Positions 47,528-60,804 of a DNA stretch of 64,000 nt are shown in pieces. Each line of letters opens with the position of its first letter. Position 1 is the stretch's first letter. Origin of the DNA: Candidatus Gastranaerophilales bacterium. Lineage in GTDB: Bacteria; Cyanobacteriota; Vampirovibrionia; Gastranaerophilales; Gastranaerophilaceae. The notes beneath the pieces were generated by a model. The model was not told the origin of the DNA. It saw only the letters and a list, made by a program, of their open reading frames with translations, and did no database searches. The stretch lies in assembly GCA_944325515.1 (NCBI GenBank), contig CALVAO010000003.1:1-64000 (forward strand). The letters are read 5' to 3'. Made by a program: the position numbers and the translations under genes.

Positions 47528-47761
47528 TTAGACATTATCTTTATTAAGGTGGTGTCTAATTGCTTTATTAAAATTCTCACTGAATTTTTTTATGCCCTCC
47601 GGAGTCTGAAAAACAGCAAGTTTGTTGCCTTCAGTATCAACGGCATAGCGCATTATCGGATCATATTTGTTGGAAGGCTTGACGTAAACATAACTTATGC
47701 CGTATTTGCTTTGGGGAGATATTTTAACCAGACCGTCAGCTGTTTTATCTTTTATTGTCAT
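47528..47761 (-). CDS. Small protein of unknown function
   Basis: A 77-residue protein, MTIKDKTADGLVKISPQSKY at the N-terminus, with a beta-rich first half (YGISYVYVKPSNKYDPIMRYAVDTEGN type) and a helical basic tail (FSENFNKAIRHHLNK). No signal peptide or tag. It overlaps the upstream tagged gene by 17 bp, and GGAG lies just before the ATG, so the two are coupled. No family is recognised; the pair may act together. Confidence 0.6.
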   Translation of the reverse strand: MTIKDKTADGLVKISPQSKYGISYVYVKPSNKYDPIMRYAVDTEGNKLAVFQTPEGIKKFSENFNKAIRHHLNKDNV

Positions 47762-48224
47762 AACTCCGCGTGAATCTTTCTGTTTTGTACCTTGAACTTA
47801 TCATAAGCTTTTCGCATATTTTGTCATAAATATTCTTGTGTGAATTTTTTACGGCTTTATTTTTTGTGCGATTACCGGCTATAAAATCCATTAACTCGCG
47901 TGTTTTTGTTATGACTCTCGGCTTGTTTTTCGCAATGTATTCTTCTGCAGCTTCCGGATGATAACTGTCAAAACGGAGTTTTGTGTCGATTTCCGGCATA
48001 TATTTAAATCTCATGCCATTTGCTTTGATATAATTAGCTGCATTATAGTCCTTGCTGTTTTTTAACACATATAAAATATTATCTTTTCTGCCAAAATTTT
48101 CCATAATAATTCTGCCGTTTCCGCCTACGGTTTTTTCAAAACCCTCACGCATTTCCGGACCGAATTTACTGAAATTTAATATAAAAGCTCCGCGAAAATT
48201 TGTAGAAGATACATTATTATTCAT
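47745..48224 (-). CDS. Tagged protein of unknown function
   Basis: A 159-residue basic protein. The N-terminus MNNNVSSTNFRGAFILN carries the N-F-x-G tag at Phe10. The rest has no signal peptide or membrane helix; a helical Lys-rich C-terminus (KNKAVKNSHKNIYDKICEKL) follows. AAAGGCGG lies before the ATG. The downstream 77-residue gene overlaps it. No family is recognised. Confidence 0.65.
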   Translation of the reverse strand: MNNNVSSTNFRGAFILNFSKFGPEMREGFEKTVGGNGRIIMENFGRKDNILYVLKNSKDYNAANYIKANGMRFKYMPEIDTKLRFDSYHPEAAEEYIAKNKPRVITKTRELMDFIAGNRTKNKAVKNSHKNIYDKICEKLMISSRYKTERFTRSYDNKR

Positions 48225-48269
48225 ATTACCGCCTTTCTAAAGGTTTAAAAAAACGTAAAATTTTTTTTG

Positions 48270-48644
48270 CTAGATACAATTTTTAATATGCTGTTCTAAC
48301 TTATTCAAAATCTCATCATCAATAATATGTTCAATCTTACAGGCAGCTTCTTCTGCCAAATTGTGATTTACCCCCAGAACTTTTTCAAAAAACACGGATA
48401 AAGTTTCGTGTTTCTTTATCACTTCTTTTGCCTTTTTTACCCCTTCATCAGTTATTGAAATAGTGCCGTACCTTCCGTAGTTAATCAGTCCGGACTGTTC
48501 AAGTTTTTGCAATGCTTCTGTTACTGATGCCCTTGAAACATTAAGACGTCTGGATACATCAATAGCTTTAACCTTTTTTTCTTTATTATAAATGGTGTAA
48601 ACAGCTTCAATATAATCTTCTAAGCTTGAAGAGATTTGAGCCAT
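48270..48644 (-). CDS. DtxR/MntR-family metal-dependent regulator
   Basis: A 124-residue regulator with an N-terminal winged helix (SSLEDYIEAVYTIYNKEKKVKAIDVSRRLNVSRASVTEAL core) and a dimerisation/metal domain (ETLSVFFEKVLGVNHNLAEEAACKIEHIIDDEILNKL core) with His and Glu ligands of the MntR type. There is no C-terminal SH3-like domain, so it resembles MntR more than DtxR. The start at 48644 follows AGGAGG. It overlaps the folC stop by 25 bp. Manganese or iron sensing is inferred; the targets are not visible here. Confidence 0.9.
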   Translation of the reverse strand: MAQISSSLEDYIEAVYTIYNKEKKVKAIDVSRRLNVSRASVTEALQKLEQSGLINYGRYGTISITDEGVKKAKEVIKKHETLSVFFEKVLGVNHNLAEEAACKIEHIIDDEILNKLEQHIKNCI

Positions 48645-49774
48645 TTCATGCCTCCTATCATATAAAAAGACCCGCATATTATATTTAATTTGTCCGGTGT
48701 AAGTACTGTTTCGTTTCTGTACGGTTCTGCACCTGCCGGACAATTTTTTAAAAGTATATCATAATCACATGCATTTGGATAGTCAAAGCTGTTTAGATAA
48801 ACTTCGTCGTCTGCTCTAAATAATGCGTTCATCATTTTTGGAAAATCTTTGTTCTTTAAACATCCGAAAACAAACCTGCGTTTTTCATTCGGGAAATAAT
48901 AATCAAGATTATCTCTCAATGCTTTTATGCTGTTCGGATTATGTGAAGCGTCAACTATAAGATTTTGTTCCGGAAAATACTGAAATCTGCATGGGTTTTT
49001 AACTTTTTTCAAAGCTTCGGCAATAGTTTCGCTGCTGATATTTTTGAATAAATAATTAACAGCATTGATAACAAGAGCCAGATTTTCTTGCTGGTGCAAG
49101 CCTTTAAGCGAAAGAGCTTCAGTAAATTCTGGATTGACAAAAGGTGCAGCAAGAATAAAGAGAGAATCCATTTCATCTGCTTTATCTTTTATGGCTTCAT
49201 AACCTTCCGATGTAATAACGGGACAGCCTTTTTTTATTATTCCCGCCTTTTCAAAGGCTATTTCATCTTTAGTTTTTCCGAGCCTTTCTGTGTGATCTAA
49301 ATCGATATGCGTAATTATTGAACAGAGATTATCTTTTATAACGTTTGTTGCGTCAAATCTCCCTCCCAGTCCTGTTTCCAGAATAACTATATCAACATTG
49401 TTACGGGCGAAATACAGAAACATCATAACAGTAAGGATTTCAAATTCCGTAAGGTGAATACCGCATCCGCATATTTCGTTTATATATTTTTCAAACTCAT
49501 CTTGTGGAATTTCTTTGCCGTTAATTTTTATTCTCTCTGTATAATCCCAAATATGCGGGCTTGTGTAGAGTCCGGTTTTGTATCCGGCTTCTCTTAGAAT
49601 AGCATCAAGCATTGTACAAACAGAGCCTTTGCCGTTTGTTCCCGCAACATGAATATATTTGAGTTTATACTGCGGGTTTCTGAATTTTTCCAGAGCGGAA
49701 GATATTCTGTCCAGCCCCAGATTAATATAGAACTTGCCTTTGCTTGTTAAAAGTTTTACCGCATCGTTGTACAT
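48620..49774 (-). CDS. folC: Folylpolyglutamate/dihydrofolate synthase
   Basis: Adds glutamate to folates and, in many bacteria, to dihydropteroate. The 384-residue protein has the ATP loop IHVAGTNGKGSVCTMLDAILREAG near residue 45, the LYTSPHIWDYTERIKING segment, ETGLGGRFDATNV, DHTERLGKTKDEIAFEKAGI and the C-domain DASHNPNSIKAL. The start at 49774 fits the family (M-x-Y-x-x-A) and has AAAGAG nearby; an in-frame ATG at 49792 is the alternative. The C-terminal sequence overlaps the MntR-like start, so the two are coupled. It is about 40 residues shorter than E. coli FolC. Confidence 0.93.
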   Translation of the reverse strand: MYNDAVKLLTSKGKFYINLGLDRISSALEKFRNPQYKLKYIHVAGTNGKGSVCTMLDAILREAGYKTGLYTSPHIWDYTERIKINGKEIPQDEFEKYINEICGCGIHLTEFEILTVMMFLYFARNNVDIVILETGLGGRFDATNVIKDNLCSIITHIDLDHTERLGKTKDEIAFEKAGIIKKGCPVITSEGYEAIKDKADEMDSLFILAAPFVNPEFTEALSLKGLHQQENLALVINAVNYLFKNISSETIAEALKKVKNPCRFQYFPEQNLIVDASHNPNSIKALRDNLDYYFPNEKRRFVFGCLKNKDFPKMMNALFRADDEVYLNSFDYPNACDYDILLKNCPAGAEPYRNETVLTPDKLNIICGSFYMIGGMKWLKSLQA

Positions 49775-49908
49775 AGTTATTCTCTTTGTCATTTTGCCGG
49801 AAACAATACCGGTTTTTCTTCATTTGCAGTTTTCACTTATACTATACATTAGAAAAACTTTGCTGTACACTCTGCTAAATAAGTAATAATAGTTTCTAGG
49901 AGTTAACA

Positions 49909-50035
49909 AAAATACTAATTTTCTAATTTTTGTGTAAAGTTTTATTAACATACTCATAATATTAGTCAAAAAATAATCTTTTGATGTTTTAATAGTCATG
50001 TGTAGTATAAAAATTACTATATAAAAGGTTAGGGC
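49909..50035 (+). promoter_or_regulatory. Duplicated promoter region of the first M16-like gene
   Basis: This interval is nearly identical to 57646-57772 in front of the second M16-like gene, including ATTAGTCAAAAAATAAT, GATGTTTTAATAGTCATGTG and TAGTATAAAAATTACTATAT. TTGATG with TATAAA (spacing about 19) is a candidate promoter; TATATAAAAGG lies next to the start. A weak AAGG/AGGG precedes the ATG. Confidence 0.6.
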
Positions 50036-51460
50036 ATGATAAATCCAATCAGCATTAGTACAAATCCTATTTTTTATCAAAGCAAGCAGGCAAAAGAAAC
50101 GAAGCCCGCAAATGTTTCAGCCTCAAATTTTGAACTTTCCGATTACAAAATAGGGCAGGCAATTTTAGCTAGAAACAATATTTCCTTCCGCAACCTTGTA
50201 GTCCCAATTGAAGTTACAGACAAATACAACAAAAAAATTGAAGGCAAAGACCATCTGGATTTACCTAATGTGCATATTTATGAGTATCCGGATACGAATT
50301 TAACATTAGTACTTAACTTGGCAGATAAAATCAAAAACCCTATTGTATCAATGACTTTAAATAACCAAGAACAATCAGAATATAACCCAATTATGTCAAA
50401 TCTTTTAAAAATAATAATTAATAAACGTTTTTTACAAACCTTTGGAGCTGATACATATTATGAAAATGAGGGTAATGTTATTTCATATTTTCAATTAAAT
50501 AATCAGGATGCAGTAAAAAATATTTCCCAATTAAATAAAATCATTTTTAATACAAAGTTTAATAAAATAGAACTTGAAATGGCAAAAAAAAATCTAATTA
50601 AATATATTAATTCTGATGAATATAATAATACAAATATAGATATGAAATATTTATATAAATCTTCTGATTTTAAATCTAATAATGAATTAACAAAAGAAAT
50701 TAACTCTGTTACTCTCTATAACATACAAAACTATCAAGATAATTGTTTAAAGAATTCAGAAGGAATGGCACAGGTTGTCATTCCTAAAAATTCTTTTGTA
50801 AAAGATCAAAATAAAATTTTACAATCAATTAACAAAAATATACCTATAAAACTTAAACCTCAAAATAGTACAGAAGATATGCAAAAATTTATTCCCAATA
50901 CTCAATTGGTTTGTATAAGAGATCTACCTGACAGTTATCCATTAAATTTTAACTACAAAATTTCTTTTAATAATACTAAAGAGAGTCTTATTGGCGAAAT
51001 TGCAGAACTTATTTTAACAGGTGATAATTATATTGTATTAGAAAAATATTATAAAGATCCCATAGAAATAAGAAATCCTAAACAAACTAATACATGTTTG
51101 TATTGGAAAATAAATACTGATATAGCGCCAAATCAAGATATAAATGAAAAAGAAGAATATAAAAAATTCCAAAAATATGTCAACAACATTTATCAATCAG
51201 ATTTTGCTAATGAATTAGAAGAATATAAAAATTTACTAAAAGATGATTATAAATATGATTTACAAGAAAATGAAAATGCCCTGGAAAGGTGTAAGCCTTT
51301 TCTTATAGATGAATATTTCCAAATTTATGAATTAATAAATTCTATAACAGAACAGGATATAAAAAATTTTATAAGAAAATTTATTATAGAGCAAAAACCT
51401 GTTATTCACATAAATGATACAAAAAAATATGAGGAATATAATCATGATAAAACCAATTAG
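50036..51460 (+). CDS. M16 peptidase-like protein, probably catalytically inactive
   Basis: A 474-residue protein. The first 52 residues are a polar N-terminal module ending NNISFRN (tag-like, Phe51). From about residue 60 it resembles M16 (pitrilysin/insulinase) halves: the strand LPNVHIYEYPDTNLTLVLN, then the ALDIFNKII-like helix pattern with KIELEMAKKNLIKYINSDEYN and the repeated LYNIQNYQDNCLKNSE helix-strand. The HxxEH zinc motif of active M16 enzymes is absent, so it is likely a scaffold or binding homologue. It is coupled to the AAA gene that follows (17-bp overlap). Its N-terminal 88 residues match the paralogue at 57773 closely, after which they diverge. Confidence 0.7.
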   Translation: MINPISISTNPIFYQSKQAKETKPANVSASNFELSDYKIGQAILARNNISFRNLVVPIEVTDKYNKKIEGKDHLDLPNVHIYEYPDTNLTLVLNLADKIKNPIVSMTLNNQEQSEYNPIMSNLLKIIINKRFLQTFGADTYYENEGNVISYFQLNNQDAVKNISQLNKIIFNTKFNKIELEMAKKNLIKYINSDEYNNTNIDMKYLYKSSDFKSNNELTKEINSVTLYNIQNYQDNCLKNSEGMAQVVIPKNSFVKDQNKILQSINKNIPIKLKPQNSTEDMQKFIPNTQLVCIRDLPDSYPLNFNYKISFNNTKESLIGEIAELILTGDNYIVLEKYYKDPIEIRNPKQTNTCLYWKINTDIAPNQDINEKEEYKKFQKYVNNIYQSDFANELEEYKNLLKDDYKYDLQENENALERCKPFLIDEYFQIYELINSITEQDIKNFIRKFIIEQKPVIHINDTKKYEEYNHDKTN

Positions 51461-53582
51461 CTCTGCAATACATAGGACGCAATGTAAAAATATTTTTCAA
51501 AAATTAACTAATAATATTTTACGTACAAAAAAAAATCAAAGTATTGCTAACTTAAAGTATGTTGTGCCATATGTTGCAGTACCAATTGTTGCATATAATA
51601 CTAAGACAGATGCTAATGAACGTAAGTTAGCTCAAAATTTAGAAAAAGGGAAAGCACATACTCCTGTAACTGATAATACAGAAACAAATACCAAAGCATT
51701 ACGCAAAGCTGGAATTAGAAAAAAGGATATCAATAAAGAGCTTGATAAAGATGGAAACTTAAAAAATGAATCAACAAAAAAAGATTTAGATTCAAAGAAG
51801 ATTTCTCATAAAGGTGCCCCAGACGACCAGCACTTTGAACCTGCAGACGCTTCATATAATGGCGAAACATATGGAGATATGCCAAAGGTATATGAGCCGG
51901 AAACTGGTATACAAGGAATTTCCCAGCACGCAGAAATTCCAAATTTTGATGATGCTATAAGCGGAACTCCTATTTCTGCATCGCTTGCAGAGGTTGCAGA
52001 TATGCTTGATAATCCAATTTTAACGGGCGTTGCTGCCGAATTACTTCCGGGTACAAAATTCTTAAAACCCGCTAAAGACCTCTTTGACGGAGACTTTGAA
52101 AAAGCAGCAGTAGGAACAGCAACGAGAGCCGGAGAGATTCTTGTTTCTCCGTTTAAGCTTGGCTGGGCTGCGTTTGGAGCGTTTTCCGGCACTGTATCGT
52201 GGCTTGCGGGTAATAGGGGCGAAGGTACAGGTTTCTTTGGCGGTGCTAAAAGAGCTTCTCTTATGTGGGCAAAACAGAGGAATAAAGCAGAAAATGCAGT
52301 ACTAGGCAGAGAAGAAGCGGATCCAGATAAAGGTCAAAAAGAAAAGAAACAAATTTATGAAGAAGCAACTCAAAAAGATGTGGATAATATAAGAACAAGT
52401 ACCCGAAAGGCAATAGAAAGAGAAAATGAGATAAGAAAAAAGGACGCTGAGCAATCTTCAAAAGAGCTGGAGGCTTTAAAAGGAACAGCAAGAAGAAAAG
52501 CTCAAGAAGCCGATAGGATATCTGCAAGAGCAAATTCCCGAATTCAAGAGAATAATGCTCAAGTTACTAATGCACGGCAATATTATCAACAACTTATCAT
52601 TGAAAAAAATAATTCTTTTAAATATATGCAAGACACTATGGCGCAAATAGATTCAGAAATTAGCAATGCACGAGCGCATTATGATAAAAAATTGCAACAA
52701 GAATTGACTAAGCAAAAAGCTATATTAGAAAGACAAATGAAACAAGTTTCTGATGAGGTGCTTGCAAATGCAAATTACATAATTGAAACTGTTAGAAAAT
52801 ATGAAGCCCTGTATCAAAAAACTAATCATAAAGGCTTTGGTAAAATTGCAGGGTATGATAATATCAAACAAGAATTAACAAAAATGTTTGGTGTGCCGCT
52901 ATTAAAAAAACAAAATGTTCCAAATGCAATACTATTATACGGGCAGAAAGGAAGTGGTAAAAATCTTTTTGGAGCAGCAATGGCTACACAATTCGATTGC
53001 TATGATGGAGGCAGTATGTTGCTAAAAATCGGAGATGATCTGAATTTTGATAAATTGATGGAAATAGCAGAAGATGCCCGGGCGAAATTTGTAAAAACAG
53101 GTAAAAGAACTATTATACAAATAAATGAAGTTGAATATTTCGGTAATAATCAAACTACATCATTCTTCAAAAGACTAAAAGGTAGACCGAAAAATTTTGC
53201 GGAATTTTTGTCTAATTGTGCAGATAAATATGGTTGCACAATCATGGCATCAACAAATTCGCCGGAAGAAATTGATAAACCGGTATTAGAACAAATGAAA
53301 CCCCTATATGTTCCACCGGCAAACCGTGACGACATAGCTAAGATTCTTAAACATCATGTAGATGGCAAAGAAACCGGTAAAATTGATTATGAAAAATTGG
53401 CAGATAAATTAATAGAAAAAGCCGGTAATGGTGCATTTAGCAATGCACGTTTAGAAAATATAGTTTACAAAGTCAAAACCACTTATAAAATGATTACACA
53501 AGAATTATTAGAAGATGAAATTAACCAGAGAATGCCTGACATATCTCGAGAAGATATAGAAGTGTATGCTAAAAGGATTTAA
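51444..53582 (+). CDS. Coiled-coil AAA ATPase-like protein with altered Walker motifs
   Basis: A 712-residue protein; the start at 51444 follows GAGG. It has a hydrophobic segment near 47-62, an acidic/polar linker, a Gly-rich hydrophobic region (FKLGWAAFGAFSGTVSWLAG) near 233-252, a long coiled coil (about 290-455) and a C-terminal AAA domain. The Walker A is GQKGSGKN (about 500), the Walker B is QINEVEYF (Asn in place of the Asp before Glu, about 560), and sensor 1 is ASTNSPEEID. The changes suggest weak or absent hydrolysis. It sits directly before a second, intact AAA protein (4-nt gap); together they may form a hetero-oligomer. Confidence 0.78.
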   Translation: MIKPISSAIHRTQCKNIFQKLTNNILRTKKNQSIANLKYVVPYVAVPIVAYNTKTDANERKLAQNLEKGKAHTPVTDNTETNTKALRKAGIRKKDINKELDKDGNLKNESTKKDLDSKKISHKGAPDDQHFEPADASYNGETYGDMPKVYEPETGIQGISQHAEIPNFDDAISGTPISASLAEVADMLDNPILTGVAAELLPGTKFLKPAKDLFDGDFEKAAVGTATRAGEILVSPFKLGWAAFGAFSGTVSWLAGNRGEGTGFFGGAKRASLMWAKQRNKAENAVLGREEADPDKGQKEKKQIYEEATQKDVDNIRTSTRKAIERENEIRKKDAEQSSKELEALKGTARRKAQEADRISARANSRIQENNAQVTNARQYYQQLIIEKNNSFKYMQDTMAQIDSEISNARAHYDKKLQQELTKQKAILERQMKQVSDEVLANANYIIETVRKYEALYQKTNHKGFGKIAGYDNIKQELTKMFGVPLLKKQNVPNAILLYGQKGSGKNLFGAAMATQFDCYDGGSMLLKIGDDLNFDKLMEIAEDARAKFVKTGKRTIIQINEVEYFGNNQTTSFFKRLKGRPKNFAEFLSNCADKYGCTIMASTNSPEEIDKPVLEQMKPLYVPPANRDDIAKILKHHVDGKETGKIDYEKLADKLIEKAGNGAFSNARLENIVYKVKTTYKMITQELLEDEINQRMPDISREDIEVYAKRI

Positions 53583-53585
53583 ACT

Positions 53586-54992
53586 ATGAGAATAACTTCT
53601 ATATCAACAATACAAATAACTAATTTTAAAGCAAAAAGTATTTCCAGCCGGATGAGGGACATGAGAGATGAATATGGTTGGTGGAAGTGGAATACCGGAG
53701 GCGGAAAAAGTGAAGCCAGACGACGTGCGGAATCACAACTAAACGATGAATGTAACAATTCTGAACGAGATGCAAGAATTGCAGAGGAAAAGGCTCAATC
53801 TTTTTATCAATACTCAAAAACAAAGTTAGAAGCGCAGGAAACAAAAATCCGAGAAAAACAAAATACTTTAAGTGAGTTGCAGTATATAACTTATCAAAAT
53901 AATAGAACAATTGATAGGTTAAAAGCAGAGACCTCAAGTAATGCACGCACCATTTCCAGAAATTATCAAGAAGCTGCAAGATTAATACAAGAACATAATG
54001 ATTTAAATAATAAACTGCTCCATTCAATTAGGGAGTATTCCGATTTAAAAGATGATGCAAGAAAAAGCAAAAATAAATCTAATAACTATATAAATCAGAA
54101 AGTGAAAGAAGTAAAAAATAATTTTAAAATAAAACAAGACGCTAATATTACTGAAACAGAAACAAGAATGCGGAATGCAGATGCATTAGCAGAACAACTT
54201 TTCAAAGTGTCAGTATCTTTACAAAGAACAGGTCTTTCTCAAATACAGGGATATGATTATGCTAAGGCTATTTTAAGCCGCTTATTTATAGAACCTTCTC
54301 AGTATAATAATGAAACAAGTGTACCCAATGGAGTGTTGTTGTATGGACCACAGGGCTGTGGCAAAACAACGCTGGCGCAGGCTTTTGCTGAAAGTACCGA
54401 TAATAAGATTGTATACTTTAGACCTACAATGAATAATGATAAAGCATACAATCAACTGGTAGATATTGTTAACTTTGCTAAAGAAACATTTAATAATGAT
54501 AAAAAACGAACTTTTGTTATAGTCGATGAATTTGACTCTTTTGCACCCAAAAATAATATGAGAAGTAAGAGAATGAAAAATCTTACTGATTTTATTTCAG
54601 AAGAATATCATTGTTCAATCTTAGCAACAACAAATTTTCCAGAGAACATTGATCCTACCTTATTGCGAGATGGACGTTTTGAAAAAATTGCAATTGGACC
54701 TGCCGAAGAAGAAGATTTAAAGCAAATTATTTATCGTTATCTAAATGGTTGTTTTAATAATAAAGCTGAAATTGATAAATTAATTTCTATAATTTTAAAT
54801 AATAAAAACGGAAAATATAGTAATTCCTTAATTAGAGATATTATTGATAATTGTATTGCACGGGCTAACATCATGAAACTTGACTTAGAAGCAACGCAAT
54901 TATTTGAGACCTTTAATAATACTATTCCAGATATTACGAATAAATTTTTGAAACATTTTAAACAACAGATTCAATATATGCAAAAGATTTAG
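53586..54992 (+). CDS. Tagged coiled-coil AAA ATPase (intact active site)
   Basis: A 468-residue protein. The N-terminus MRITSISTIQITNFKAKSIS carries the NFKAK tag at Phe14, followed by a DEYGWWKWNTGGGKSEARRRAES motif and a coiled coil (about 60-215). The AAA domain (about 220-440) has Walker A GPQGCGKT (Gly254-Thr261), Walker B IVDEFDSF (Asp313-Glu314), sensor 1 ATTNFPENID and an Arg-finger-type LLRDGRFEKI. These are all the elements needed for hydrolysis. It is the only clearly active ATPase of the three and lies between the two altered ones. Confidence 0.85.
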   Translation: MRITSISTIQITNFKAKSISSRMRDMRDEYGWWKWNTGGGKSEARRRAESQLNDECNNSERDARIAEEKAQSFYQYSKTKLEAQETKIREKQNTLSELQYITYQNNRTIDRLKAETSSNARTISRNYQEAARLIQEHNDLNNKLLHSIREYSDLKDDARKSKNKSNNYINQKVKEVKNNFKIKQDANITETETRMRNADALAEQLFKVSVSLQRTGLSQIQGYDYAKAILSRLFIEPSQYNNETSVPNGVLLYGPQGCGKTTLAQAFAESTDNKIVYFRPTMNNDKAYNQLVDIVNFAKETFNNDKKRTFVIVDEFDSFAPKNNMRSKRMKNLTDFISEEYHCSILATTNFPENIDPTLLRDGRFEKIAIGPAEEEDLKQIIYRYLNGCFNNKAEIDKLISIILNNKNGKYSNSLIRDIIDNCIARANIMKLDLEATQLFETFNNTIPDITNKFLKHFKQQIQYMQKI

Positions 54993-55000
54993 AGGTTAAA

Positions 55001-56749
55001 ATGAAAATAAACAGTTATATAAACATGCCAGTCAATCAATATGGATTTAAGGCTAAAACATATTCCGAAAGAGTCCAAGAGCGACTTAGCGGGTCAGACT
55101 GGTGGGACAAGAACTTTGGAGGAGATGAAGAACGTGCCCGTAATTCCGCCGAACGAGAGATGCTGGACGAAATAGATAATAACACGAGCAGAAAGCGTCA
55201 TGCAGAGAGTGAGTATGAACGTTATGTTGATAATTATAATTATCAAAGTAGTAGAAATACAAGTCGGTTAAATAAGTTAGAAAATGAGATTCAAAGGGAA
55301 CATAATTTACACACATCACAGGAGTCAAAAATTAAATCTCTAAATTCCAAAATTGCCGCGCAAACAGATAAGGTTATAGCAAGCAGCAGAACTTTAGATA
55401 ATATAACGGAGAAAACTAATACCACAAGGGACAAAGTTTCTAGTTTAAAACTAGAAACTATAAAGTTAAAGAGAGAAGTTAGTAATATAAAATTTCAAAC
55501 CGAAATTAAAATTCAAGAAGAAACAGAAAAAATAAGAAAACAAAGTTTTGAAAAATATAATCAAAAAGTAGAAGCACTAACTAAAAAACCATTACTATAT
55601 TTAAATCAAAATATAATTTTACCGCTTAAAATAAAACAGTCCGGAAAAGCTTTTACAATACCCAACGGGTTATTAATTGAAACACCTTCAAAATTATTTT
55701 CTAAAATTATTCTATCTTGGATTACGAAGAAAACAAATTCTAACTATGCAATACTAAATGCAAAAAAATATAAAACCGAAAGTGATTTCTTTGACGCATT
55801 AAGTGACATTTCAGAGCAAGCTAGAAATTATAACAAACAAACTAACTGCCATACATTTACATTAATTAATAACATAGAGAAATTTACCAGAAAAAAAAAC
55901 TCACAAATCATACCATATTTGAAAAGTTTTATGGATACAACATCAAGAGATTATAGTAATACAATAATTCTTTCTACAAAAGATAGTACAAAACTGGATC
56001 CAATATTAATAGCAAAACATAGATTCCCTCTAAAAATGGACTTGACATGGAATTTTGTATTTATGAAAAAATATGGATTTAGGACAATGTTATCTAATTT
56101 ATTAAAAATAAAGGCTAAGCGTACAAAATTCAAAGCTAGATTGGACAAAAAAAATAGTAAATCATTAAGTGTAACAGGAAATATTATTAGACAAAATAAT
56201 ATTAATAAAAGTAATACACTTCAAAATTTAGAAAAAAATAATAAAAATAATGTAATTACAAATAATACCCCTGTAAAAAAAGTTCCAAATGCACAACCGC
56301 TAATGCCGATAAAATCTGAGCCATCTAATTTAAAGATAATAGAACCGTCATTAGATAACTTAAGGCTTTACCTTAATGAGTTAGTTAAACAAAACAAAAC
56401 AATTATTGTTGAAAATTTGCAAAGAGTCATCTCTGAGTTTTCTATATCCGATATGATAAATTTATTGAAAATAATTGATGCAATAGACCCAACAGACAAG
56501 ATTATACCTATATCAGATATTAATATACCCGAAGAAAATAATTATGATGATATAGTATCATTTATAAAGAAAAATATTGGTCATCTCACCCAAAAAGAAA
56601 TTATAGAAATAATACAAATTATAGAACTATTCATAGAATTTATGGAAAATAAGCAGCCTTATAATGATAAACTATATTCTTATTTAAAAAATGCTGATTT
56701 TATGAAAATTATTGTTAATTCGTCAATTTTAAAGAAGTGTTTACACTAA
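55001..56749 (+). CDS. Tagged coiled-coil pseudo-AAA protein
   Basis: A 582-residue paralogue of the preceding protein. The N-terminus MKINSYINMPVNQYGFKAKT has the FKAK tag (Phe16) and a matching motif SDWWDKNFGGDEERARNSAERE. A coiled coil runs from about 55 to 200. The AAA region begins IPNGLLIETPSKLFSK, which replaces GVLLYGPQGCGKTT, so the P-loop is lost; Walker B reads TLINNIEKF instead of VIVDEFDSF, so both acidic residues are gone. Sensor 1 and Arg finger are also altered (LSTKDSTKLD, LIAKHRFPLK). A new C-terminal helical domain of about 190 residues follows. This is a pseudo-ATPase, probably regulatory or structural. Confidence 0.78.
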   Translation: MKINSYINMPVNQYGFKAKTYSERVQERLSGSDWWDKNFGGDEERARNSAEREMLDEIDNNTSRKRHAESEYERYVDNYNYQSSRNTSRLNKLENEIQREHNLHTSQESKIKSLNSKIAAQTDKVIASSRTLDNITEKTNTTRDKVSSLKLETIKLKREVSNIKFQTEIKIQEETEKIRKQSFEKYNQKVEALTKKPLLYLNQNIILPLKIKQSGKAFTIPNGLLIETPSKLFSKIILSWITKKTNSNYAILNAKKYKTESDFFDALSDISEQARNYNKQTNCHTFTLINNIEKFTRKKNSQIIPYLKSFMDTTSRDYSNTIILSTKDSTKLDPILIAKHRFPLKMDLTWNFVFMKKYGFRTMLSNLLKIKAKRTKFKARLDKKNSKSLSVTGNIIRQNNINKSNTLQNLEKNNKNNVITNNTPVKKVPNAQPLMPIKSEPSNLKIIEPSLDNLRLYLNELVKQNKTIIVENLQRVISEFSISDMINLLKIIDAIDPTDKIIPISDINIPEENNYDDIVSFIKKNIGHLTQKEIIEIIQIIELFIEFMENKQPYNDKLYSYLKNADFMKIIVNSSILKKCLH

Positions 56750-56759
56750 ATTCCTTCTA

Positions 56760-57599
56760 TTATTCCATCTTTCCATTCCAGAAATGGTGTAGAGTTTGGG
56801 TAATTTTGGAATCTGGTTTGTGGATTAGGAACCGTTTGAACAAGCTTTGCTTTTTATAAGGACTTTGGGAAACAAAGTCGATGCAGGGTAATAATACATT
56901 TTTGTCAATATTTTCTATTGTTCTTTTAGAAAAATCACAGGCTACAGCTTCAAAGGGATTTTCTGAAGCATAGACGCAAATTTTTTCAAGCATATTTTGG
57001 TATTTTGCCCTAAAAATTTCAAGTTTTGGAAAAGTTAATGTTTCCTCAAGCAGTTTTACGAGTTTTTTTCCGCCTAGTTTTTGGATTAGATTCTGTTCGT
57101 GTACAGCGTGTAAAAATTCGTGCAAAATCGGTTCCAGAAAGAAATCCGTAGAAGAAAAATGACGGTCAAAATTCTCATCTGCCATGCAGTCTATTCTCTC
57201 CCAATACTCGTTTCCGTCAGAATGATTAAAATCCTTAAACTCATTAAAAAATATGGTTTTTTCCGGAGTTATTTTACTATCTTTTTTGTGCAGTTTAACA
57301 GGAGCGAAATTTAAAAATCCTATTGAACTTTTATCTTGAATATTTAAATTTTGAAAATCTTCTACAAAAATTCCGTTTGGCAGCCCTAGATTTAAATGAT
57401 AATTTTCATTTAAATATTTAATAATTTCCAGACATTTAAGCGAACACCACGCAATAACTTTATTTTCTTTAAAGTCAGTTTGGATTCCGTTTTTTGCAAA
57501 TTCTTGCGCAATTCTCTTTATATCAGAAGAAGCGATTTCTTTCTGCATTTTCTGCGTAAGACCCGCTTGAAAATTGATATTTGTATTTTGAACTTTCAT
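56760..57599 (-). CDS. Tagged putative zinc metallopeptidase (HEFLH)
   Basis: A 279-residue protein with MKVQNTNINFQAGLTQ at the N-terminus (tag NFQAG, Phe10). EPILHEFLHAVHEQ (about 157-170) is an HExxH zinc motif, and NPFEAVACDFSKR (about 215-225) supplies a Glu that could be the third ligand; the pattern resembles gluzincin-type peptidases. No signal peptide. It is transcribed divergently from the second M16-like gene, with which it shares the duplicated promoter region, and convergently to the pseudo-AAA gene (10 bp apart). The family is not named with certainty. Confidence 0.7.
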   Translation of the reverse strand: MKVQNTNINFQAGLTQKMQKEIASSDIKRIAQEFAKNGIQTDFKENKVIAWCSLKCLEIIKYLNENYHLNLGLPNGIFVEDFQNLNIQDKSSIGFLNFAPVKLHKKDSKITPEKTIFFNEFKDFNHSDGNEYWERIDCMADENFDRHFSSTDFFLEPILHEFLHAVHEQNLIQKLGGKKLVKLLEETLTFPKLEIFRAKYQNMLEKICVYASENPFEAVACDFSKRTIENIDKNVLLPCIDFVSQSPYKKQSLFKRFLIHKPDSKITQTLHHFWNGKME

Positions 57600-57645
57600 A
57601 ACAATAACAAAACATAAACAAAAAAAATTTTGCTTATATTTTGTG

Positions 57646-57772
57646 AAAAATACTAATTTTCAAATTTTGTGTAAAGTTTTATTAACATACTTAAAATATT
57701 AGTCAAAAAATAATTTTTTGATGTTTTAATAGTCATGTGTAGTATAAAAATTACTATATAAAAGGTTAGGGA
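57646..57772 (+). promoter_or_regulatory. Duplicated promoter region of the second M16-like gene
   Basis: Nearly identical to 49909-50035, see that entry. The identity continues into the coding sequence for about 90 codons. It also lies upstream of the divergent zinc-protein gene. Confidence 0.6.
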
Positions 57773-59236
57773 ATGATTAATCCAATCAACATTAGTACAA
57801 ATCAGATTTATTATACAAACAGGCAGGCAAAAGAAACGAAGCCCGTTAATGTTTCAGTCCCAAATTTTGAGCTTTTTGATTATAAGACTGGACAGGCTAT
57901 TCTTGCGCGCAATAATATCTCATTCCGGAATCTTGCAACGCCAATCGAAGTAACTGATAAATACAACAAAAAAGTCGAAGGCAAAGACCATCTGGATTTA
58001 CCCAATGTTCATATTTATAAGTATCCGGATACGAATTTGCAGGTTTTTATAAATGAACACCCTAATATGGGTAAATATTCTGATATTATACAAGCAAACT
58101 TGTATGTAAAAAAGTTCGGTTCAGAAGAAAATCTAATCAAAAAAGAGATTAGCATACGTTTATTGTCAAAACTTGTCAATAATAAACATGAAAAAACTAA
58201 TGTAACAAAAAATAATCGCGGATTTTTCACCTTAACAACAGTACTTCCAAAGAATGAGTATAAAAATTTAGAAACTTTTAATAAAATAATAAGCGAGCCT
58301 AATTTTACACAAAAAGATTTAGATAATGTTAAAAAAGATTTGATTGAAGAAATAAAGTCTACAGAACATAAAAAATCTCTAAAACTTTATGCTTCTTTAT
58401 ATGGTGAAGATAGTTTAAAATCTGAAGAAGAAACAATAAATGAAATAAACAATACATCACTTAGCGAAATTCAGAAATATTATTCAGACAGCATAAAGAA
58501 TTCAGAAGCCCAGTATTTTATAACTGCAGATAAAATATTCTTACAAAACAACAAAAAAGAGATACAAAAAAGCCTCAATTCAAACATTAGCCGTCCATAC
58601 TTATCTCACAACGAAGAACCGGAAAAAAGTCCTGTATTTTTGCCTAACTTAAAAGATATCAGAATCGTAGATAATGATAACAAAGCTTATGTAGAAATGT
58701 ACTACCCGTGCAGTTCCAATACGTTGAGAGATTATTTGGCAAATTTATATTTAAGCTTCATATGTTTATTTTATAGGGATCCATACATTTTAGAAACTTC
58801 TGGTCCCAAAGCAATACAACCACCAATAGAGTCTAAATTATCTAATAACCTATCATTAAATACGTTAGATATTCAATTTAATCCAATTGATACTATACAT
58901 AATAAAGATAAAGAAATTATTGTACAGCAAGGAATGTTATATGATTTGTATGATAGAGATTTTGCTCAAATGCTAAAGGCAATAAAAGATTATGAAAATG
59001 AACTTTTGGACAAAAAACTAAATAAGAAATTTAATATTAAATCATCAAATAATACGTTATGTAATTATGCTTATGATATTTTCAAAACATATGAGATAAA
59101 TGAATCTATAAAACCAGACGATATAAGACATATTATCTGGTACAATATCGTTTGCCAAAGACCGATTTTGATTATAAATAATGAACACAAAATAAGAGAA
59201 GTCATAAAAAATGCCAGTAAACCGAATTATGCCTGA
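57773..59236 (+). CDS. M16 peptidase-like protein, paralogue of 50036
   Basis: A 487-residue paralogue. Residues 1-90 match the protein at 50036 at about 80 % by eye (MINPINISTNQIYYTNRQAK, then RNNISFRN, EVTDKYNKK.EGKDHLDLPNVHIY), while the rest has diverged. The M16-like pattern is clear here: NVHIYKYPDTNLQVFIN, the helix KEISIRLLSKLV, then FNKIISEPNFTQKDLDNVKKDL, LYGEDSLKSEEETINEINNTSLSEIQKYY. The HxxEH motif is missing. It stands without an AAA partner downstream. A binding or inhibitory role is inferred. Confidence 0.7.
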   Translation: MINPINISTNQIYYTNRQAKETKPVNVSVPNFELFDYKTGQAILARNNISFRNLATPIEVTDKYNKKVEGKDHLDLPNVHIYKYPDTNLQVFINEHPNMGKYSDIIQANLYVKKFGSEENLIKKEISIRLLSKLVNNKHEKTNVTKNNRGFFTLTTVLPKNEYKNLETFNKIISEPNFTQKDLDNVKKDLIEEIKSTEHKKSLKLYASLYGEDSLKSEEETINEINNTSLSEIQKYYSDSIKNSEAQYFITADKIFLQNNKKEIQKSLNSNISRPYLSHNEEPEKSPVFLPNLKDIRIVDNDNKAYVEMYYPCSSNTLRDYLANLYLSFICLFYRDPYILETSGPKAIQPPIESKLSNNLSLNTLDIQFNPIDTIHNKDKEIIVQQGMLYDLYDRDFAQMLKAIKDYENELLDKKLNKKFNIKSSNNTLCNYAYDIFKTYEINESIKPDDIRHIIWYNIVCQRPILIINNEHKIREVIKNASKPNYA

Positions 59237-59281
59237 TAAGATTATGGCAAAAGTACAAAACTTTATGATGTAATTTATGTT

Positions 59282-60034
59282 TTATACCGCTTTTTCAAGT
59301 GCTTGATATACTTCTTGAGAGATTAAGCCGGAATTTACATCTTCATGTATGACGTTTAGAGCTTCTTCGCGGCTCATTGAATCTTTATAGCTCCTCTTTT
59401 CTCTTAAAGCGGTGTATTTATCTGCGGCTGTAAGTATCTGCGATGTAATATCCGGTGTGTAATCATCGGTTATTGCAGGATAGCCGTCACCGTTAGGCGT
59501 CTGATGATGGTATTTTACAAGATTTAAGACATTTTGATTAACGCCCTGCTGTTTTAAAAGTGAATAACCAAGCTCTGAATGCAAATCCATAACTTTCTTT
59601 TCTTCCGGCGTTAAGCTGCCGTTCTTGTTCAAAATCTTTTCCGGAATTAGGATTTTACCATAATCGTGAAGCATGGCTGCCTGCTGTAAATCTGAAAGGT
59701 TTATTTCGTTCTTCATCTCCTGCGGAAGCGATGAATATATTTTAGCTGCTGTAACACGTGTATCCATTAAATGCCCGCGCTTAAGTTTCTCCAGCTCTTC
59801 TGTATTTACTTTTAGCGGAATACCGTTTTCTTTAAGGATTTTAATTATTTCCGGATTTGATTTCGCAAGTCTTGCTACTGTATTTTTATCCCAATAATTT
59901 TCATACAAAGGATTTGTATTAAAAGAATCATTCGCCGGCAAAAATGTTTCCGGATAAGCAGTCTGATTAGACCGGAACTGAATCCGCGGGAATGTAATAT
60001 TGTTTAGTATCGGGTTGTTATATATCGGGTTCAT
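59282..60034 (-). CDS. HD-GYP-like phosphodiesterase domain protein
   Basis: A 250-residue protein. The start at 60034 gives MNPIYNNPILNNITFPRIQF, with a tag-like QFRSN at Phe20. The catalytic domain (about 75-250) shows HDYGKILIPEKIL (HD), the YHHQTPNGDGYPA segment of HD-GYP enzymes and TAADKYTALREKRSYK. It may cleave cyclic di-GMP, but the exact HD-GYP residues vary and no GGDEF or EAL gene lies in the window. No signal peptide is visible. It is minus strand and starts about 40 bp upstream of a promoter with TATAAC. Confidence 0.82.
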   Translation of the reverse strand: MNPIYNNPILNNITFPRIQFRSNQTAYPETFLPANDSFNTNPLYENYWDKNTVARLAKSNPEIIKILKENGIPLKVNTEELEKLKRGHLMDTRVTAAKIYSSLPQEMKNEINLSDLQQAAMLHDYGKILIPEKILNKNGSLTPEEKKVMDLHSELGYSLLKQQGVNQNVLNLVKYHHQTPNGDGYPAITDDYTPDITSQILTAADKYTALREKRSYKDSMSREEALNVIHEDVNSGLISQEVYQALEKAV

Positions 60035-60175
60035 TCTTTTCTTCAACTTCACACTAACTTGTTATAGTCATGTAAAGTATTTTTTTAATGAAAATTTGAC
60101 TAAAAAACACAGTTTGTTAACAAACTGTTACATTTGTACATAAAAATGCTGATTTCCCGAAGACGTTTTATCTCC

Positions 60176-60769
60176 CTAAAACTTACCCTTTATTTTTGCA
60201 GGACGCCATATATAGCGCGATTTATCCGTATCGATTAATTCAAATCCGTTTTTTTCATAAAAATTTGTTGCGGAATAGACAGAACTCAGCGTAATTGCTT
60301 TGTTATATATCTTTTTCAAAACATTAATAAAACCGGTTCCTATTTGTTTGTATTGACGTGTATCAGAGGCATATGCCGTTTCGGGATTTACCTGCAGATA
60401 CGCAAGCTCGGCAGGCTGGTGTTTTTCCAGCTCTATCTGCGCCAGACCAAGGATTTTATGCTCATTAAGCTTTTCGTAATTCTCATCCTGGCGTGTCAAG
60501 GCATATATTTTAAAATTCTCTGCCGGCAGGAAATCTCCCGCAATTCCGCTTGCTGTTGAGGCAATATCAGTTGCATAAGTATGATTTTTCCCCCAGCCCT
60601 TAGCTACATTTACAAGAGTTCTTAAATCATCATTACTGGCAGGTTCAATCTCTACCAGAGAGACATTTAAAGGCTGGTAAGTTTTCTTTTTGGGGTTATA
60701 TTTTGAGATTTCGGTATTTGTCAGAAATTTTGCACCGAAATTTACTGAATTTAATTTATTTATTTGCAT
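60176..60769 (-). CDS. Tagged GNAT-like acetyltransferase
   Basis: A 197-residue protein. The start at 60769 gives MQINKLNSVNFGAKFLTN, with the NFGAK tag at Phe11. The C-terminal part has IGTGFINVLKKIYNKAITLSSVY and NFYEKNGFELIDTDKSRYIW, the typical close of a GNAT domain; the acyl-CoA loop (Q-x-x-G-x-G) reads YKQIGTGF. The substrate is unknown. It lies 36 bp after the cyclase gene on the same strand. Confidence 0.78.
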   Translation of the reverse strand: MQINKLNSVNFGAKFLTNTEISKYNPKKKTYQPLNVSLVEIEPASNDDLRTLVNVAKGWGKNHTYATDIASTASGIAGDFLPAENFKIYALTRQDENYEKLNEHKILGLAQIELEKHQPAELAYLQVNPETAYASDTRQYKQIGTGFINVLKKIYNKAITLSSVYSATNFYEKNGFELIDTDKSRYIWRPAKIKGKF

Positions 60770-60804
60770 AGTATTCTTTTTAAAACCGGACAAAAAATTT
60801 TTTG

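Follow-up and report, generated by a model that had tools for sequence, protein, structure and literature searches.

Results

Three consecutive AAA genes in the window

The DNA analysed here, referred to as the window, is a stretch of 64,000 nucleotides comprising the first 64 kb of contig C3 in a 2.1-Mb Gastranaerophilales genome of 34 contigs. Its open reading frame list includes three consecutive AAA genes, A1, A2 and A3, all on the + strand (Table 1). A sequence-only reading had described them as coiled-coil AAA proteins with graded loss of the ATPase site, and the observation is real: the three frames lie on the same strand, and the proteins are AAA by Pfam in the case of A1 (E=8.3e-6) and A2 (E=1.6e-17) or, for A3, which gave no Pfam AAA match by sequence, by structural model.

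Table 1. Positions in the window of the AAA genes, their diagnostic segments and the flanking genes.
Feature	Coordinates	Strand	Description
M16-peptidase-like protein	50036..51460	+	474 aa; N-terminal leader; overlaps A1 gene
A1 (class L)	51414..53582	+	722 aa; alternative start 51444
A1 layout			N-terminal helical region; coiled coil aa 322-471; AAA aa 475-722
A1 P-loop GQKGSGKN	52941..52964	+	aa 510-517; Asn in place of Thr/Ser
A1 Walker B QINEVE	53118..53135	+	aa 569-574; Asn in place of Asp
A1 lost arginine-finger position VLEQMK	53283..53300	+	aa 624-629
A2 (class C)	53586..54992	+	468 aa; leader MRITSISTIQITNFKAK, W-rich segment, coiled coil, intact AAA
A2 Walker A GPQGCGKT	54345..54368	+	aa 254-261
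A2 Walker B IVDEFD	54519..54536	+	aa 312-317
A2 arginine-finger segment LLRDGRFE	54660..54683	+	R361, R364
A3 (class D)	55001..56749	+	582 aa; leader ending YGFKAK, WW..GG segment
A3 layout			coiled coil aa 43-194; dead AAA domain aa 196-354; C-terminal extension aa ~391-582
A3 P-loop position TPSKLFSK	55682..55705	+	aa 228-235; P-loop gone
A3 Walker B position LINNIE	55862..55879	+	aa 288-293; neither acid left
A3 R341 in LIAKHRFP	56021..56023	+	retained arginine-finger residue
Zincin-like protein	56760..57599	-	279 aa; HEFLH (HExxH); leader MKVQNTNINFQAG
Second M16-like paralogue	57773..59236	+	487 aa; leader-bearing

The individual motif states largely agree with that reading. A2 is intact, with both GPQGCGKT and IVDEFD confirmed, and it possesses every feature of PF00004 (Walker A and B, the sensor-1 Asn, the second region of homology and R-x-G-R); sequence alignment places its LLRDGRFE segment on the R-x-G-R of VCP-like ATPases. 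The Asn before the Walker B Glu of A1 was found as described (QINEVE); GKN for GKT in the P-loop is an additional departure that had escaped the reading, and in the related genome G044 the Walker B Asp position of A1 is occupied by His. The N-terminal region of A1 carries a degenerate FKG-like leader remnant, and its coiled coil and AAA module are also seen in a structure model. A3 has lost the P-loop and both acids (LINNIE) and keeps the AAA frame, as had been proposed: its AlphaFold model consists of a helix (residues 43-194) followed by a well-modelled AAA large subdomain (~196-354) that matches p97 D1 with Z 15.7 and rmsd 2.4 over 152 residues. A1, which has no fingers, and A3, which has no site, are thus classical AAA members by fold and homology only. 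The C-terminal helical extension ascribed to A3 is real as an open frame, but it is modelled with low confidence and is missing in the G044 orthologue (378 aa). The WW..GG segment is indeed common to A2 and A3. The best sequence and fold matches of both A2 and A3 are of the p97/Vps4 type, and Torsin and LAP1 are absent among the matches listed.

The feature that the sequence-only reading overlooked is the arginine finger. A1 has none, A2 has one, and A3 retains the second finger Arg, R341, despite the loss of the rest of its ATPase site. Judged from the model, R341 would lie at or adjoining p97 R362, provided that the end of the alignment is ungapped.

Recurrence of mixed arrays across the order

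Co-conservation in related genomes was one of the two tests of the three-gene grouping named by the sequence-only reading. G044 contains A1, A2 and A3 in the same order, with the same motif states and the same flanks, and mixed sets of live and dead members recur across the order. Within the genus, few relatives of the window A1 and A2 were detected at E<=1e-30, and the distribution of the clusters is patchy. Profile matches at E<=1e-22 were obtained in 143 of 383 genomes of the order and 27 of 52 genera; the genome count is an estimate, and the profile may also catch some other AAA proteins. The regions around ~60 of the matches were inspected and are multi-gene AAA arrays.

These arrays differ in composition. 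Five-gene arrays with the content A1, B, A2, A3 and A4 are present in G025, G055, G177, G188 and G324. In another common layout, a large fingerless P-loop subunit is accompanied by a second P-loop subunit, which has a finger, and by one dead subunit. In a further one, a single fingerless P-loop subunit is found with one to three dead subunits, many of which carry the motif QPHRV. Long extra regions occur in some dead subunits. The B subunit of G025 (L039, 11025-13493) consists of two tandem AAA domains, which gives six AAA domains in a five-gene cluster. Proteins resembling the A1 N-terminal region and having no recognisable AAA domain adjoin M16-like genes in L044 (2143-4344), L045 (6420-7835) and L094 (6210-6845). 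AAA relatives from other phyla have the P-loop, Walker B and finger intact, stand mostly alone in their loci and are mostly IetA-like. A literature search for Gastranaerophilales AAA arrays or leader motifs found none.

Retention of the finger arginine in domains without a site

Motif states were scored in 167 domains from 63 loci, with seven proteins left out as other AAA types or fragments. At the position of A2 R364, the 78 P-loop-less domains have Arg in 67 cases, Lys in 1, another residue in 6 and a gap in 4; the corresponding numbers in the 89 P-loop domains are 31, 11, 45 and 2. The finger Arg is the top conserved column in the P-loop-less domains (67/74, or 90.5% of those with a residue), and the next columns are K331 (88%) and P247 (84%). 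The same domains keep the Walker A Lys in 6/78, the Walker B Asp in 7/78, the Walker B Glu in 2/78 and the sensor-1 Asn in 12/78; the first finger Arg (R361-equivalent) is kept in 7/78, and most keep the second Arg only. The association between site and finger states is strong when relatedness is ignored (Fisher P ~2e-13), the counts being of related sequences and not of independent events.

At the level of clusters, 42 of the 47 that lie >1.5 kb from contig ends combine a P-loop subunit with a dead subunit that has the Arg; the loci were chosen by a profile that mixes live and dead members, which may favour mixed clusters. The other five (L203, L205, L208, L213 and L216) contain no such donor as read, and a more divergent donor may lie nearby. 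In 20 of the 42 clusters, the finger is absent from every P-loop subunit, so that complete sites are possible there only with the dead subunits. Transmembrane segments, predicted by a hydropathy threshold, were found in 24 of 73 dead and 7 of 88 P-loop-bearing proteins (P=9e-5); none of the window A1, A2 and A3 exceeds this threshold.

Site and finger states were further traced by parsimony on a FastTree phylogeny of 162 domains. At least 5 site-state changes (~54 with shuffled labels) and at least 9 finger-state changes are needed; because the backbone supports are mixed, the number of losses is approximate. Every one of the 54 domains in the main dead clade (support 0.77) has the Arg. The A4 clade, which contains a further dead subunit of the five-gene clusters, different from A3, comprises 5 domains, all with Arg, and groups with A2 (support 0.97). 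The A3-type clade (support 0.95) has 7 domains, members of seven clusters, and is the weakest dead class, Arg being scored in 3/7; the window and G044 both keep it. The three clades are separate from one another, and separate dead clades thus retain the Arg. The A3-type clade is not sister to A2, and A2 and A3 can therefore be called tandem duplicates, as claimed, only in the sense of old paralogues: since the two types of AAA domain lie apart in the tree, a duplication, if there was one, is old.

Neighbouring genes and a shared leader

The M16-like proteins that flank the cluster show a weak profile match to the solved protease 5euf (E=0.005) and align with a genuine M16 protein by hhalign with a probability of 59% (E 9.4e-5); in the window, their sequences gave no Pfam M16 match and contain no HxxEH zinc motif. 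In G000, G044 and G188 alike, M16-like proteins are encoded close to the clusters. The HExxH family is found near 11 of the loci, and H-E-x-x-H is invariant in 8 aligned members. Compared with solved structures, the profile of this family gave matches at chance level only, so the motif is the sole basis for the zincin assignment.

Many of these proteins begin with an N-terminal leader of the approximate form M-[KR]-[IV] ... [ST]-F-[KRGQT]-[AGS]. With a loose regular expression, the signal over the whole genome was weak (46 vs 29.6 expected), and a stricter pattern separated the leader. The strict pattern is present in 60/159 AAA proteins; among the other proteins it occurs in 34/420 of those within 4 kb and 3/132 of those farther away, against 6/354 in 20 other stretches of the genome of the window and 3/288 in other phyla. 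The contrast is descriptive, because the pattern had been adjusted by eye to these very sequences. In the window (47745-60793) and in loci L038-L231, the leader was seen on otherwise unrelated proteins (AAA, zincin, M16-like, HD, GNAT-like and ankyrin). It is possible that the leader is a sorting or recruitment tag. Leader-bearing ankyrin-repeat or ankyrin-like proteins adjoin AAA clusters in L077 (12070-14781), L088 (4152-6347), L089 (10114-11634) and L209 (3761-5950), and the L077 protein is fused to two intact AAA domains.

Prophage genes lie beside several clusters, namely terminase and endolysin genes in L074 and a neck protein gene in L081, L089, L210 and L219, and a Mu-type transposase gene is located beside the L039 cluster; L075 and L092 are also among the AAA clusters beside prophage or Mu-like genes. 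A tblastn search of a phage collection with A2 returned nothing, and IMG/VR scans returned mostly generic AAA proteins and one contig with a clear member of the system (L092); phages as the main habitat were rejected on these grounds. The L092 contig has short-frame L- and D-type AAA members and an apparent reverse transcriptase gene.

Discussion

In AAA rings, the finger of a neighbouring subunit completes each ATPase site. We consider it probable that A1, A2 and A3 belong to a single obligate AAA hetero-oligomer, with the arginine given in trans by dead subunits. The motif states, their conservation, their co-occurrence and their recurrence are observed directly in the clusters; physical assembly, catalysis in trans, ring order, membrane placement and substrate are what we infer from them. 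In this model, the two halves of each ATPase site would reside on different proteins. A3 would bind no nucleotide and would act as an arginine-finger donor, the intact pocket of A2 receiving its trigger arginine from A3 R341, and the finger of A2 itself would be directed to the weakened site of A1. As A1 has no finger, it could be placed only behind a subunit without a site, that is, A3, and the A3-A1 contact would then be a catalytically dead seam. An arrangement in which no usable finger lacks a usable site would thus have the order A1-A2-A3, with this contact catalytically empty. The complex carrying the seam may be a two-fold hexamer, (A1-A2-A3)2, or an open spiral with the seam at its gap; the term ring is borrowed from AAA family membership, and a split ring or spiral would fit equally well. 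The subunits would be kept in contact by their coiled coils. Since many relatives have a dead subunit with a predicted transmembrane helix, this subunit would in addition bring the motor to a membrane. Kinship to classical AAA proteins (Cdc48, Vps4 and IetA-like) suggests that the complex most likely uses ATP to remodel or unfold a protein substrate, perhaps in connection with the neighbouring zincin. The hetero-oligomer of active, weakened and dead subunits suggested by the sequence-only reading is backed by the comparative evidence; the dead subunit, to which that reading gave a structural position, is beyond that a candidate finger donor, and this arginine-finger division of labour is the new element over the earlier idea. 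A counter-point is that the five-gene clusters contain more fingerless active subunits than dead sites, which would leave some active sites without a canonical finger unless the Lys often seen at this position substitutes for it.

The dead copies might alternatively be adaptors or recruiting subunits that use the AAA fold as a docking module, with the Arg holding the fold or an interface and playing no catalytic part. Predicted membrane segments are frequent in the dead subunits, long extra regions occur in some of them, and conservation in the dead domains is high at the K331- and P247-equivalents too; yet the Arg is their top column, and 58/89 P-loop-bearing paralogues with this fold lack it. 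This pattern speaks against an Arg that is needed for the fold alone, and we regard the adaptor explanation as unlikely. It is less probable still that A1 and A3 are simply decaying tandem duplicates without a joint function. The graded motif loss, the patchy distribution within the genus and the variable C-terminus of A3 would agree with decay, but the dead subunits have kept long open frames and one specific catalytic residue over many genera, P-loop and dead members occur together in 42 of the 47 interior clusters, and the retention of the Arg disfavours plain decay.

The role of the clusters could also be that of accessory defence or prophage cargo, an AAA protein and a protease in the manner of IetAS, with the split site as a regulatory feature; to this we assign a small but appreciable chance, and it does not exclude the trans-finger mechanism, with which it is compatible. 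The best defence-model match of A2 is IetA (1.6e-12), a zincin is encoded near several clusters, several clusters lie beside prophage genes, one is on an IMG/VR contig, and the distribution is patchy. The IetA score is low, however, and generic AAA models score equally well or better; the IMG/VR scans yielded one clear member and the phage collection none, and the neighbours of the window cluster are of housekeeping type.

The trans-finger model invites comparison with several known systems. Cdc48/p97, Vps4 and CdvC share the fold and the second-region-of-homology layout with the proteins described here, but they are typically homomeric, with every site complete, whereas here the sites are divided among paralogues. 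IetA is the best PADLOC match of A2, and outgroup AAA proteins match it at 1e-30 to 1e-36; IetA-like proteins, however, are found intact and mostly alone, the A2 score is low, and a PADLOC search with the flanking M16-like and HExxH proteins gave nothing at E 0.01. Clamp loaders (RFC and the bacterial gamma complex) contain active and ATPase-incompetent AAA+ subunits at fixed positions in an open ring, with fingers acting in trans (PMC3331839). The combination of live and incompetent subunits in a hetero-oligomer, as proposed here, is similar; the present proteins differ in having long N-terminal coiled coils and a leader, and no clamp or collar domain was seen in them. The PHROG clamp-loader matches of A2 (6.7e-18) cover the AAA core only.

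Torsin, located in the animal ER and nuclear envelope, is a P-loop AAA+ protein without a conserved arginine finger, and its membrane-anchored AAA-like partners LAP1 and LULL1 lack nucleotide-binding motifs and have a strictly conserved Arg at the finger position; the authors of the 2014 Torsin-LAP1 paper described an alternating ring of active and nucleotide-free subunits as the first to their knowledge (PMC4358337). A live subunit without a finger together with a dead, Arg-bearing partner is likewise found in 20 of the 47 interior clusters, a motif match that supports a similar way of working, not membership. The window A2, unlike Torsin, keeps its own finger; the present subunits are bacterial and paralogous, are encoded in one cluster and often include several dead members and sometimes an intact one too. 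Moreover, Torsin was compared with ClpB-D2 (PMC4358337), whereas the domains here match classical AAA (p97/Vps4-like). Only tentatively, and with somewhat less than even confidence, do we propose that across the order a classical AAA family has repeatedly distributed its site over two kinds of subunit, one that binds nucleotide and others that are free of it, donate the Arg and are often anchored in the membrane. This would be a bacterial counterpart of Torsin-LAP1 of independent origin and, with the leader and the zincin, would constitute an undescribed machine for remodelling or proteolysis, placed at the membrane.

Few AAA rings have activator subunits that bind no nucleotide, and the same logic would be present here in dozens of bacterial clusters with many variations, which together represent one recurrent multi-gene family of a poorly understood order. 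The proteins are of modest size and could be expressed in pairs, and they may thereby reveal how a symmetric motor turns asymmetric and what a dead subunit must keep.

A natural variant of the window cluster is found in L094, which is 98.8% identical to the window over 4.8 kb. Of the 8 nucleotide differences in the A2 gene, 7 fall within ~40 bases at the finger segment (L094 1403-1444 vs window 54642-54683); these seven are nonsynonymous, resulting in E353K and the change of GRFE to EKLK, and all of them read A in L094. DGR-type mutagenesis was considered because of this uniform A, and was rejected, as no second copy of the segment was found in the genome of the window; the change may be an assembly artefact. 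The L094 A3 retains R341. If the change is real, the finger of A2 would be dispensable while the Arg of A3 is kept, a situation that fits the trans-finger model only if the A1 site is non-catalytic.
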